DNA of 64,000 nt from Lacrimispora xylanolytica. Its GTDB lineage: Bacteria > Bacillota > Clostridia > Lachnospirales > Lachnospiraceae. Below are positions 33,797-35,644 of the stretch, piece by piece; position 1 is the stretch's first letter, and every line of letters starts with the position of its first letter. The stretch is from positions 2,217,001 through 2,281,000 of the forward strand of contig NZ_CP113524.1 in the NCBI RefSeq assembly GCF_026723765.1, written 5' to 3'. The notes beneath the pieces are model-generated. The model was not told where the DNA came from, searched no databases, and was given only the letters and a program-made list of their open reading frames with translations. A program made the translations under genes and the position numbers.

Positions 33797-33825
33797 TTGA
33801 CAATTTGAAACTTTTATGATATTTT
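33797..33825 (+). promoter_or_regulatory. Promoter of the ABC-F leader transcript
   Basis: TTGACA at 33797-33802, a 17-base spacer and TATTTT at 33820-33825. A second TATGAT lies at 33815-33820 but with too short a spacer. Transcription from here would include the upstream ORF and all the hairpins described next. Confidence 0.6.
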
Positions 33826-33844
33826 GAATTTATATTTGACGAGA

Positions 33845-33968
33845 AAGAGGTGAAAGGATGAAGTTATAATTCTTGCTGAAGTTACTGTACAACATGAGTA
33901 TAAGTTTTACTATGCTTTTTTGTTGTGCCTGTTATGCAAGAATATCACTTCATTCTCCAGCCTTTTTT
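33845..33968 (+). terminator. First (uORF-containing) terminator/attenuator of the ABC-F leader
   Basis: The 5' arm 33856-33876, which contains the upstream start codon, pairs with 33936-33958: ATTCTTGC / GCAAGAAT (8 bp), then a short bulge, then TGAAGT / ACTTCA and flanking pairs. An imperfect extension pairs the AAAGAGGTG ribosome site with CCAGCCTTT. Within the loop GTACAACA (33887-33894) pairs with TGTTGTGC (33921-33928). Six T follow at 33963-33968. TGAAGTTA occurs twice (33859-33866 and 33877-33884), so alternative pairing with the same 3' arm is possible. Confidence 0.65.
33858..33869 (+). CDS. Three-codon upstream ORF (M-K-L-stop) in the ABC-F leader
   Basis: ATG AAG TTA TAA at 33858-33869 follows a strong Shine-Dalgarno sequence (AAAGAGGTG at 33844-33852, plus AAAGG at 33853-33857). 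It lies inside the 5' arm of the first terminator. Very short upstream ORFs of this kind are known in leaders of ABC-F and other antibiotic-resistance genes, where a drug-stalled ribosome changes RNA folding. The peptide itself need not have a function. Confidence 0.6.
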   Translation: MKL

Positions 33969-33970
33969 GT

Positions 33971-34035
33971 TTGCAAATGATTCTATTTGCAACATTTAAA
34001 ATACCTGCAATTTACCTGCCTGGTTCAGGCAGGTA
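33971..34035 (+). promoter_or_regulatory. Two further leader hairpins between the terminators
   Basis: TTGCAAAT (33971-33978) pairs with ATTTGCAA (33985-33992), and TACCTGCCTG (34013-34022) pairs perfectly with CAGGCAGGTA (34026-34035) around a 3-base loop. Neither is followed by a T run. A TACCTGC copy at 34002-34008 could compete for the second stem. Confidence 0.6.
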
Positions 34036-34039
34036 GCTG

Positions 34040-34074
34040 ACGGCTGCGAGATATGATTTCTTGCAGCCGTTTTT
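34040..34074 (+). terminator. Second terminator of the ABC-F leader
   Basis: ACGGCTGCGAGA (34040-34051) pairs with TCTTGCAGCCGT (34059-34070) over 12 bp with one G-U pair, with a 7-base loop and TTTTT at 34070-34074. It is a textbook intrinsic terminator located 40 bases before the gene. A further hairpin GCAGAAA / TTTCTGC (34078-34096) lies just before the GGAGGT site. Confidence 0.88.
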
Positions 34075-34114
34075 AATGCAGAAAATCACTTTCTGCTGAT
34101 TTGGAGGTATGTAT

Positions 34115-35644
34115 ATGTCATTAATACAAGTTACAGATTTATCGTTCACATACGAAGGCGGAATCGAGCCTGTTTTTGAACATGTGTCTTTTCAAATTGA
34201 CACTGATTGGAAGCTTGGGTTCACTGGGAGAAATGGACGTGGGAAAACCACTTTTTTAAACCTTTTGATGAAACGTTATGAATTTACAGGGAGCATTGTA
34301 TCTGGTGCAGAGTTTGATTATTTTCCATTCCCTATTGAAGATCAGGACAGAAGTACCATGGACATTTTGGAATCCTTACATGGGGAATTTGAATATTGGG
34401 AGATAAAACGGGAGCTTACCAAATTACAGGTAACAGAAGATGTTCTTTACCGCCCGTTTTCAACATTATCCAATGGAGAACGGACAAAGGTCCTATTGGC
34501 TGCACTGTTTTTAAAGGAAAATCATTTTCTACTCATAGACGAACCGACTAATCATCTGGACCGGGAAGGAAGAGCTTTGGTCAGTCGATATCTAAGTGGG
34601 AAAAAAGGATTTATATTGGTTTCCCATGACAGAAACTTTCTGGATTCTTCCGTGGACCATATTCTATCCATTAATAAAACAAATATAGAGGTGCAAAAGG
34701 GTAATTTCACCTCCTGGTATGAAAATAAACAAAAACAGGATCAATATGAATTGTCAGAAAATGACAGATTAAAGAAGGGCATTCGGCGGTTGGAAGCGTC
34801 TGCTAAGCAATCCAGGGAATGGGCAGATCAGGTAGAATCAACAAAGATAGGTAAAAAATCCATGGTCCGGGAAAAATCCATCGACAATAGAGCTTATATA
34901 GGTGAGAAGTCGAGACGGATGCAGATGCGCAGAAAAAATCTGGAGCAGCGGCAGGATCGTGCGATTGATGAGAAAAAAGGCTTATTAAAAAATATAGAAG
35001 AAGCAGAGCGTTTGAAGCTGTACCCTGCAAAACATCATATGGATCGGATCCTCACCTTAAAAGAAGTGGTACCAAGCTTTGATCGTCCAATATGCAAGCC
35101 AATCAGTTTTGTATTGGAACAGGGGCAGCGGATTTCGCTTCAAGGGAAGAACGGATGCGGGAAATCAAGTCTGATAAAGTTAATCCTTGGAAGGGAAGCG
35201 AGACCTGATACATTGTCTTATACAGGAACAATTGAAGCGGCCAGCGGCCTTACTATCTCCTATGTATCTCAGGATACCTCCTTTTTACAAGGAAGCTTAT
35301 CTGATTATGCCAAAGCATGCGGAGTCGAGGATTTTTTGTTTAAAGCTGTTTTAAGAAAACTTGATTTCTCCAGAGAGCAGTTTGAAAAAAATATGGAGGC
35401 ATACAGCGAAGGCCAAAAGAAAAAGGTTCTGATTGCCAGAAGCCTATGTGAGAAGGCGCATTTGTATATTTGGGATGAGCCTCTGAATTTTATTGATATC
35501 TATTCCAGGATGCAGATTGAAGAATTGATTAAGGAATTTCAGCCCACTATGATTTTTGTAGAGCATGATGAGGCATTTTCTAAAGCCATTGCGACCAGCC
35601 AGATAGAGGTGGAGCAAGTGGATTTTGGACTTTGCAATCAATAG
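34115..35644 (+). CDS. ABC-F ribosomal protection protein (Lsa/CplR-like)
   Basis: A soluble protein with two ATPase domains and no membrane part. Proteins of this type bind the ribosomal E site and displace lincosamides, pleuromutilins and streptogramin A. The first Walker A is GRNGRGKT (38-45) with signature LSNGERTKVLLAA and LLIDEPTNHLD; a long charged linker follows (about 190-300); the second Walker A is GKNGCGKS with signature YSEGQKKKVLIARSL and Walker B IWDEPLN. ATG 34115 is chosen because ATG 34109 abuts GGAGGT. At 509 aa it fits the Lsa/CplR group; the drug spectrum is inferred. Expression is probably controlled by the 320-base leader. Confidence 0.88.
   Translation: MSLIQVTDLSFTYEGGIEPVFEHVSFQIDTDWKLGFTGRNGRGKTTFLNLLMKRYEFTGSIVSGAEFDYFPFPIEDQDRSTMDILESLHGEFEYWEIKRELTKLQVTEDVLYRPFSTLSNGERTKVLLAALFLKENHFLLIDEPTNHLDREGRALVSRYLSGKKGFILVSHDRNFLDSSVDHILSINKTNIEVQKGNFTSWYENKQKQDQYELSENDRLKKGIRRLEASAKQSREWADQVESTKIGKKSMVREKSIDNRAYIGEKSRRMQMRRKNLEQRQDRAIDEKKGLLKNIEEAERLKLYPAKHHMDRILTLKEVVPSFDRPICKPISFVLEQGQRISLQGKNGCGKSSLIKLILGREARPDTLSYTGTIEAASGLTISYVSQDTSFLQGSLSDYAKACGVEDFLFKAVLRKLDFSREQFEKNMEAYSEGQKKKVLIARSLCEKAHLYIWDEPLNFIDIYSRMQIEELIKEFQPTMIFVEHDEAFSKAIATSQIEVEQVDFGLCNQ

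Follow-up and report, generated by a model that had tools for sequence, protein, structure and literature searches.

The leader and the gene that it precedes

The window, i.e. the whole stretch of 64,000 nucleotides of the Lacrimispora xylanolytica genome analysed here, contains a structured leader flanked upstream by a motB-like gene (NCBIfam matches below cut-off) and downstream by an Lsa-type ABC-F gene (Table 1). The ABC-F protein reached the cut-off of the NCBIfam model ribo_prot_ABC_F (458 bits, cut-off 380), in line with the resistance-type ABC-F gene of the first-pass annotation, and missed the curated cut-off of ABCF_Lsa_all (NF000167; 696 bits, cut-off 750), which is why we call the gene Lsa-type rather than Lsa proper. 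Lsa(A) is the closest solved structure (7nhk, 403 bits); among relatives, identity to the window's protein is 95% in [Clostridium] aerotolerans DSM 5434 and 87% in Lacrimispora algidixylanolytica. Judged by its sequence, the ABC-F protein is predicted to be of the ribosomal-protection type and would thereby confer resistance. Two in-frame start codons are available, at 34109 and 34115 (34109-34117), of which the former was rejected as the gene start, the relatives beginning at 34115.

Table 1. Leader elements and the ABC-F gene, in window coordinates
Feature	Position	Strand	Basis
Promoter-like pair, TTGACA (33797-33802), 17 nt, TG-n-TATTTT (33820-33825)	33797..33825	+	Consensus scan, 10/12 matches, TG before second hexamer
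Shine-Dalgarno sequence (SD) of the uORF, GAGG	33847..33850	+	Read from sequence; anti-SD duplex -5.3 kcal/mol
uORF ATG AAG TTA TAA (MKL-stop)	33858..33869	+	Read from sequence; conserved in genus
Segment 1 core ATTCTTGC, 5' arm of SL-1	33869..33876	+	Fit to segment 2 beats swaps (0/5000)
SL-1, long imperfect stem with SD and uORF, proposed anti-antiterminator	33838..33970	+	Predicted fold
Segment 2 (TGCAAGAATATCACT), 3' arm of SL-1, proposed antiterminator strand	33935..33949	+	Covariation with segment 4
U-tract (U6) following SL-1 (T1), candidate early terminator or pausing site of the genus	33963..33968	+	18/21 genus leaders
Hairpin between SL-1 and T2	33971..33990	+	Predicted fold
ATACCT, may pair with AGGTAT (34106-34111), covering part of the gene's SD	34001..34006	+	Predicted fold
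Second hairpin between SL-1 and T2	34011..34035	+	Predicted fold
T2, intrinsic terminator with U-run to 34074	34039..34074	+	Sequence and predicted fold
Hairpin between T2 and the gene's SD	about 34077..34098	+	Predicted fold
SD of the ABC-F gene, GGAGG	34103..34107	+	Read from sequence
Lsa-type ABC-F ribosomal protection gene	34115..35644	+	NCBIfam ribo_prot_ABC_F, ABCF_Lsa_all, Lsa(A) structure match

The leader RNA (33832-34130) folds in silico at -114.1 kcal/mol and is far more stable than its shuffles (-66.0 +/- 4.8 kcal/mol in 200 shuffles; z -10, 0/200), as expected for the structured leader foreseen by the first-pass annotation; folded separately, the stretches 33832-33975 and 33990-34080 give z values of -6.0 and -7.4. 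Sequence and predicted fold also agree with that annotation in placing the start codon, the coding part and the SD of the MKL-stop upstream open reading frame (uORF) on the 5' side of SL-1. T2 comprises a stem (34039-34051/34059-34071), a loop (34052-34058) and the cores of two segments discussed below, namely segment 3 (34046-34053) and segment 4 (TTTCTTGC, 34057-34064), and the region 34030-34080 folds at -24.2 kcal/mol. Its earlier description as a perfect 12-bp terminator needs correcting, the stem having 13 predicted pairs, one of them G-U; likewise, of the three further hairpins once placed between this terminator and the gene, two are predicted between SL-1 and T2 and one after T2. A simple consensus scan flagged neither the SL-1 nor the T2 hairpin as a terminator, and the promoter-like pair was no better than shuffles (1 found, shuffle mean 3.2). 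Comparable promoter-like pairs, judged by eye, precede the leaders of several relatives.

Conservation and covariation among relatives

We gathered 117 loci as best matches rather than as a random sample (one set being the best 80 of 573, two others holding at most 30 loci each); omission of 8 duplicates left 109, and two plasmid loci (L150 and L151) brought the set to 111 relatives. Plasmid-borne lsa(E) (L148) and lsa(B) (L149) and a distant gene of Enterococcus raffinosus (L173) were left outside it. A uORF together with T2 was called by script in 99 of the 111 best-match relatives, 12 being without a T2 call, and 94 leaders were kept after five had been removed by hand as miscalled (L019, L056, L078, L091 and L102); 62 mutually distant representatives were drawn from these 94. 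L019 has an MEL uORF and an unrecognised T2, and L046 an MK uORF and no T2 call. Because uORF and T2 are conserved to this extent, a chance origin of the arrangement is unlikely. The mobile genes lsa(E), on an Enterococcus plasmid, and lsa(B), on a Staphylococcus plasmid, were found without a TTTCTTGC leader; a longer leader-type ORF lies upstream of lsa(B). Searches with Rfam 15 yielded no family at gathering score in seven loci and, in the window between 30000 and 38000, a single match far below gathering score, on the opposite strand and inside the ABC-F gene.

The uORF is highly variable in length and sequence. It has one sense codon in 17 of the 94 leaders, two in 21, three in 14, four in 2, five in 3, six in 30 and seven in 7, with 36 different peptides in the 62 representatives and at least 10 shifts of length class on a quick gene tree of 93 genes; all 21 analysed leaders of the genus carry two- or three-codon uORFs (MKL 4, MK 5, MN 2, MI 1, MKK 9). 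The features that remain constant across leaders are the uORF's start codon, the motif TTTCTTGC close to it (segment 1), the complementary GCAAGAAA within SL-1 (segment 2), and a T2 with TTTCTTGC again in its 3' arm (segment 4). Counted from the A of the ATG, the TTTCTTGC-like 8-nt core begins between +8 and +21 in the 62 representatives, with a median of +11, so that a ribosome holding the start codon in its P site would cover much of the segment 1 core in most leaders.

In the 17 leaders with a start-stop uORF, the stop codon is TAA in nine, TAG in four and TGA in four. Going by sequence, these may be true one-codon uORFs, the stop codons being explained by pairing as well. The occurrence of three stop types might suggest selection for a stop but is confounded, since the bases concerned may also face UUAC in SL-1, where A/G changes keep G-U pairs. 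The SD-to-ATG spacing is long (about 12) in much of this class, and the start codon called by script is uncertain where an ATG-stop lies inside or after a longer call (L065, L067, L073, L086, L114 and L150). Five Lacrimispora genomes also carry a second, diverged Lsa-type gene with a four-segment leader and an MINFSC uORF (L033, 1322-1500; similar in L034-L037), and in L033-L035 a further, longer ORF (about 26 codons, preceded by an SD of its own) is located between T2 and this gene.

SL-1 is formed by segments 1 (TTTCTTGC) and 2 (GCAAGAAA), and T2 by segments 3 and 4 (TTTCTTGC); as segments 1 and 4 both carry TTTCTTGC, segment 2 can pair with either. Segment 2 was placed by reference to the SL-1 fold, and segment 4 by T2 and its resemblance to the motif; since the two were thus located independently of each other, their fit counts as a test. 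Among the 62 representatives, 7.19 of 8 positions of the 2:4 pairing are Watson-Crick pairs in natural combinations versus 6.55 +/- 0.09 when segments are swapped between leaders (0/5000). The corresponding values are 7.15 versus 6.63 for 1:2 (0/5000) and 6.11 versus 5.49 for 3:4 (0/5000), the control pairing 3:1 being at chance (5.58 versus 5.53; 1404/5000). Over the 8-nt core, segment 4 thus fits segment 2 better than it fits its own terminator partner. Register 0 alone stands out between -3 and +3 (z 7.6), and the 2:4 excess persists when swaps are confined to leaders with an identical segment 1 (0/5000, 49 leaders), the signal being weaker with swaps confined to an identical segment 3 (133/5000). 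The first-pass annotation had looked to an alignment of relatives for conservation and covariation, and both are present, uORF and T2 being kept in 94 of the 111 best-match relatives and segments 2 and 4 covarying.

The signal is not evenly distributed. Among the 15 representatives of the window's own group the test is blurred: the 2:4 fit gives 1/5000, but the control 3:1 is also high (45/5000); in the other 47 representatives the respective values are 0/5000 and 4734/5000. Likewise, pairing between the segment 2 extension and the loop of T2 reaches significance in these 47 (0/5000) and not in the window's 15 (729/5000). A tree-aware 2:4 test on 93 genes, in which independent changes are too few for statistical power, agreed in tendency, with 3.4 changes in the same direction and 0.0 in the opposite direction of 6 pairs (median p 0.25); at a second position the values were 2.5 and 0.0 of 6, and those of the control 3:1 there 1.6 and 1.4 of 7. 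RNAalifold on a MAFFT alignment of 51 of the 62 representatives recovered only 5 pairs, and R1, the covariance model built from these 51, is therefore mostly a sequence profile. In the same 51 sequences, the covariation score of the 8-pair 1:2 helix of SL-1 exceeds 500 of 500 shuffles, with 94.1% paired cells versus 90.4 in shuffles and 13 double-changed cells versus 5.1 (each 0/500), although the numbers of pairs changed on both sides and of pair types are not above shuffles (438 and 472 of 500).

Predicted switching and alternative explanations

Equilibrium pairing probabilities were used to predict the effect of a ribosome on the fold, a footprint of 31 nt being placed over the uORF start and the RNA being ended at the segment 4 core. 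With the footprint and a partial T2, the antiterminator 2:4 has a mean probability of 0.92 over the 62 representatives, exceeding 0.5 in 59 of them and reaching 0.99 in the window, compared with 0.03 for 2:4 and 0.83 for T2 when the ribosome is omitted from the same RNAs. A second run used RNAs with two additional bases and an upstream flank of 60 nt in place of 25; 2:4 then reached 0.80 with the start codon under the footprint (>0.5 in 49/62), and footprints elsewhere gave 0.04 (62 representatives), 0.06 (47) and 0.02 (62). In the window, the duplex of segment 2 with the T2 loop and 3' arm (about 34054-34065) amounts to -12.9 kcal/mol. Once T2 is complete, the ensemble of the window with the ribosome in place is 0.99 T2 and 0.00 antiterminator, a forced antiterminator being 4.4 kcal/mol worse; over the 62 representatives the same situation yields 0.55 versus 0.43, the antiterminator exceeding 0.5 in 37. 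Because the completed T2 wins at equilibrium in the window, kinetic capture during T2 synthesis must be assumed: the switch would act while T2 is being made, on a time scale that equilibrium folding cannot show.

Taken together, the observed conservation, covariation and complementarity of the segments and the predicted ribosome-dependent switching point to a ribosome-sensing transcription attenuator, in which SL-1 serves as the anti-antiterminator and a stalled ribosome frees segment 2 to capture the 3' arm of T2, a reading to which we assign a probability of roughly 0.7. Conservation and the alternative fold likewise support, in silico, the earlier suggestion of uORF-dependent attenuation ahead of a resistance-type ABC-F gene, here assigned to the vmlR/cplR kind. 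The alternative fold had been attributed to a repeat of TGAAGTTA, which is indeed present twice (33859-33866 and 33877-33884); its existence stands, in the form of segment 2 paired with the loop and 3' arm of T2. The repeat was rejected as the main alternative fold because SL-1 holds both copies on its 5' side and the covarying partners are segment 2 and T2.

Stalling, termination, the response to drugs and their kinetic order would then unfold as follows. RNA polymerase would transcribe SL-1 first. Without drug, a ribosome would start and finish the uORF and depart, whereupon segment 1 would pair with segment 2 in SL-1 and the T2 hairpin (3:4) would end transcription downstream; in Lacrimispora, the U-tract behind SL-1 may stop or slow some transcription earlier. 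A drug blocking the first peptide bonds (lincosamide, pleuromutilin or streptogramin A) would trap the ribosome on the uORF start codon, where it would hide the SD, the codon itself and a large part of segment 1. Since the trapped ribosome would occupy much of segment 1, SL-1 could not form and segment 2 would be left free. As the T2 loop and the 3' arm emerged, segment 2 would capture them ahead of synthesis of the lower, G+C-rich portion of the hairpin. This would disarm T2 and allow transcription of the ABC-F gene, a single stall defeating both SL-1 and T2.

The strongest competitor, albeit one that we consider unlikely, is that in Lacrimispora SL-1 and its U-tract form the main regulated terminator, which a stall prevents from folding, and that T2 is constitutive and merely lowers readthrough. 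A run of at least five T within 45 nt behind segment 2 is present in 18 of the 21 genus leaders, at a nearly constant distance, and the victory of the completed T2 over the antiterminator at equilibrium in the window would fit a T2 of this kind. Yet such runs occur in only 20 of the 73 other leaders, mostly at different places, whereas T2 and the 2:4 complementarity are general; the U-tract is short in three members of the genus itself (L005, L006 and L009), the base of the stem beside it is weak, with few pairs beyond an internal loop, and the gene would stay silent behind a T2 that nothing opens. The first-pass annotation had cast SL-1 as the attenuating terminator, a role that is not what the relatives preserve: across them, SL-1 is kept as a stem masking segment 2, and T2 would be the general regulated terminator. 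Its tandem-terminator layout is possible in Lacrimispora and does not extend to the leaders in general, since the U-tract is typical of the window's genus only and is not what is conserved. The U-tract may cause weak early termination or, like the NusG-dependent TTNTTT site of vmlR (PMC9226507), pausing.

Control might instead be exerted mainly at translation, a stall altering access to the SD of the ABC-F gene, with termination secondary. This SD is more complementary to the region separating segment 2 from T2 than in swapped combinations (11.6 versus 10.2 +/- 0.26 kcal/mol; 62 representatives, 0/2000), ATACCT can pair with AGGTAT in the predicted fold of the window, and cplR combines transcriptional and translational layers in the accessible account of that gene (PMC10201436). 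Such anti-SD pairing is, however, without obvious dependence on segment 2, and T2, called in 99 of the 111 best-match leaders, has the make-up of an intrinsic terminator, which renders a mainly translational mechanism quite improbable. Even less credit is due to the idea that segments 1 and 4 resemble each other as TTTCTTGC binding sites of a trans-acting factor, with no change of partner by segment 2: the motif is conserved in sequence too, several columns reaching at least 90% in the 51 sequences, but segments 2 and 4 leave the consensus together (e.g. in L047, L049, L051, L062 and L117), as fits pairing rather than a fixed site. Ordinary terminators with a chance short ORF and no regulation are hardly credible, given the conservation and covariation in 94 of the 111 best-match relatives and the recurrence of the leader before an unrelated gene family, even though the promoter and terminator scans by themselves are not above shuffles.

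Cfr-family genes and comparison with known leaders

Genome matches of the covariance model R1 numbered 15/151 in the class of Brevibacillus reuszeri (G100) and 19/146 in the order of the window, both under stricter filters, and 30/39 in the family of B. reuszeri. We inspected 76 R1 loci, excluding 13 opposite-strand readings of the same place and with a few places fetched twice. Downstream lies an Lsa-type gene in 57, a Cfr-family gene in 14, both in a row in one (L261) and neither in four, the last comprising a probable false match (L188), a contig end (L251), a leader that has lost T2 (L260) and one unexplained case (L259). In L259, a full leader module (about 440-680) is followed by approximately 2.3 kb without an Lsa-type or Cfr gene. 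Scoring of two Cfr proteins gave 640 and 633 bits against a cut-off of 550; the remaining Cfr calls rest on tblastn with one of these two. In the genome of the window, R1 matches this one place only, and no Cfr protein was found at cut-off.

Leaders with an AUG-stop uORF precede genes for Cfr-family 23S rRNA methyltransferases in the family of B. reuszeri (L189, L190, L245, L248, L250 and L252-L258). Thirteen of the 14 Cfr leaders, all except L249, matched the search pattern, which requires an AUG-stop, so that the AUG-stop is a condition of this sample; the stop codon is TAA in 12 and TGA in one. In all 13 analysed Cfr leaders, segment 2 prefers the 3' arm of T2 and the footprint turns the predicted fold. 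Two of the loci differ in gene arrangement, L198 having an interrupted Cfr gene behind the leader and L261 the leader, an Lsa-type gene and a Cfr gene in succession; in L189 and its relatives, about 300 nt with an ORF of approximately 37 codons and its own SD separate T2 from the Cfr gene.

Lsa-type ABC-F proteins and Cfr protect against overlapping sets of peptidyl-transferase drugs. That two unrelated proteins with overlapping drug spectra share one leader is the strongest argument for what the leader senses, and suggests a joint control layer for two resistance mechanisms. More tentatively, and at somewhat less than even odds, we propose a widespread RNA module of Bacillota that senses arrest at the start codon through a uORF reducible to AUG-stop, captures the loop and 3' arm of the terminator rather than its 5' arm, is coupled to Lsa-type ABC-F and Cfr methyltransferase genes and, in Lacrimispora, disarms two serial terminators with one stall. 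With uORF length and peptide variable but start codon and switching segments constant, the signal would be arrest at the start codon rather than stalling that depends on a particular peptide; no nascent peptide would be needed, as the uORF can shrink to AUG-stop. Since the captured strand is the last-made arm of the terminator, the switch must win a race during transcription, which makes the kinetics of antitermination directly testable. What might have passed for a single-gene curiosity thus becomes a testable RNA family. According to the accessible text describing one uORF finder, its default minimum is nine nucleotides, so that a start-stop uORF would be skipped by default (PMC10219788).

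The following comparisons rely on the accessible portions of the publications. Induction by lincomycin or retapamulin depends on a uORF in vmlR and cplR, and drugs stall ribosomes at the uORF start codon of ARE5 genes (PMC9226507; PMC10201436; PMC12421871). The leader described here resembles these attenuators in combining a ribosomal-protection ABC-F gene, a conserved short uORF with an SD, the terminator T2 (by sequence and fold) and mutually exclusive pairings (in silico). In Bacillus subtilis, vmlR has an MIN uORF, requires initiation at the uORF for induction and contains the NusG pause motif TTNTTT (PMC9226507). The likeness extends to a three-codon uORF within a 5' anti-antiterminator stem, an antiterminator, an intrinsic terminator and a hairpin covering the SD (PMC9226507). 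The vmlR antiterminator bears SL-2 at its apex, and antiterminators are generally encoded upstream of the terminator and may form first; by contrast, and with vmlR compared by the text of the paper only, the partner here comprises the terminator loop together with the 3' arm (PMC9226507). cplR of Clostridioides difficile shares the uORF-dependent induction of an ABC-F gene by lincomycin and retapamulin and differs in its MR[I/M] uORF and in a terminator stem that also covers the SD of the gene (PMC10201436). The predicted uORF consensus of vmlR2, MK[L/Q], reads MKL as in the window, whereas that of LsaA, MAGN, is unlike the uORFs of our set (PMC10201436). Inducibility based on uORFs has also been proposed for cfr of plasmid pSCFS1, although by means of two overlapping uORFs and an occluded ribosome-binding site, i.e. 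at translation, the accessible text mentioning neither a terminator nor a TTTCTTGC module (PMC8752094). Among the matches listed in a literature search that was incomplete for subscription papers, and judging by titles and the opening of abstracts, we found no such module, no attenuator with a start-stop uORF and no leader shared by Lsa and Cfr genes.

The closest comparison is with Vga-type leaders, of which 20 loci were fetched and the 10 with a matching uORF pattern analysed. Like the Lsa-type leaders, they have an SD, a three-codon uORF (MKY, MKC, MKL, MHN, MKN or MYN), SL-1 and a terminator before an ABC-F gene. Unlike them, they carry the core AATCCTATT, and their segment 2 pairs with the 5' arm of the terminator in 10/10 (-17.1 versus -5.9 kcal/mol), whereas segment 2 of the Lsa-type leaders prefers the 3' arm of T2 in 60 of the 62 representatives (-15.0 versus -5.6 kcal/mol). 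These Vga-type leaders (L153-L160, L162 and L163) form a group of their own with the common core AATCCTATT / AGAATAGGATT / CCTCCTATTCT, three-codon uORFs and the 5'-arm topology. The principle that a drug-jammed ribosome at a tiny uORF opens a resistance gene is thus already known; what look new are the way in which the segments pair and the recurrence of the leader, in other bacteria, ahead of a resistance gene unrelated to the first.
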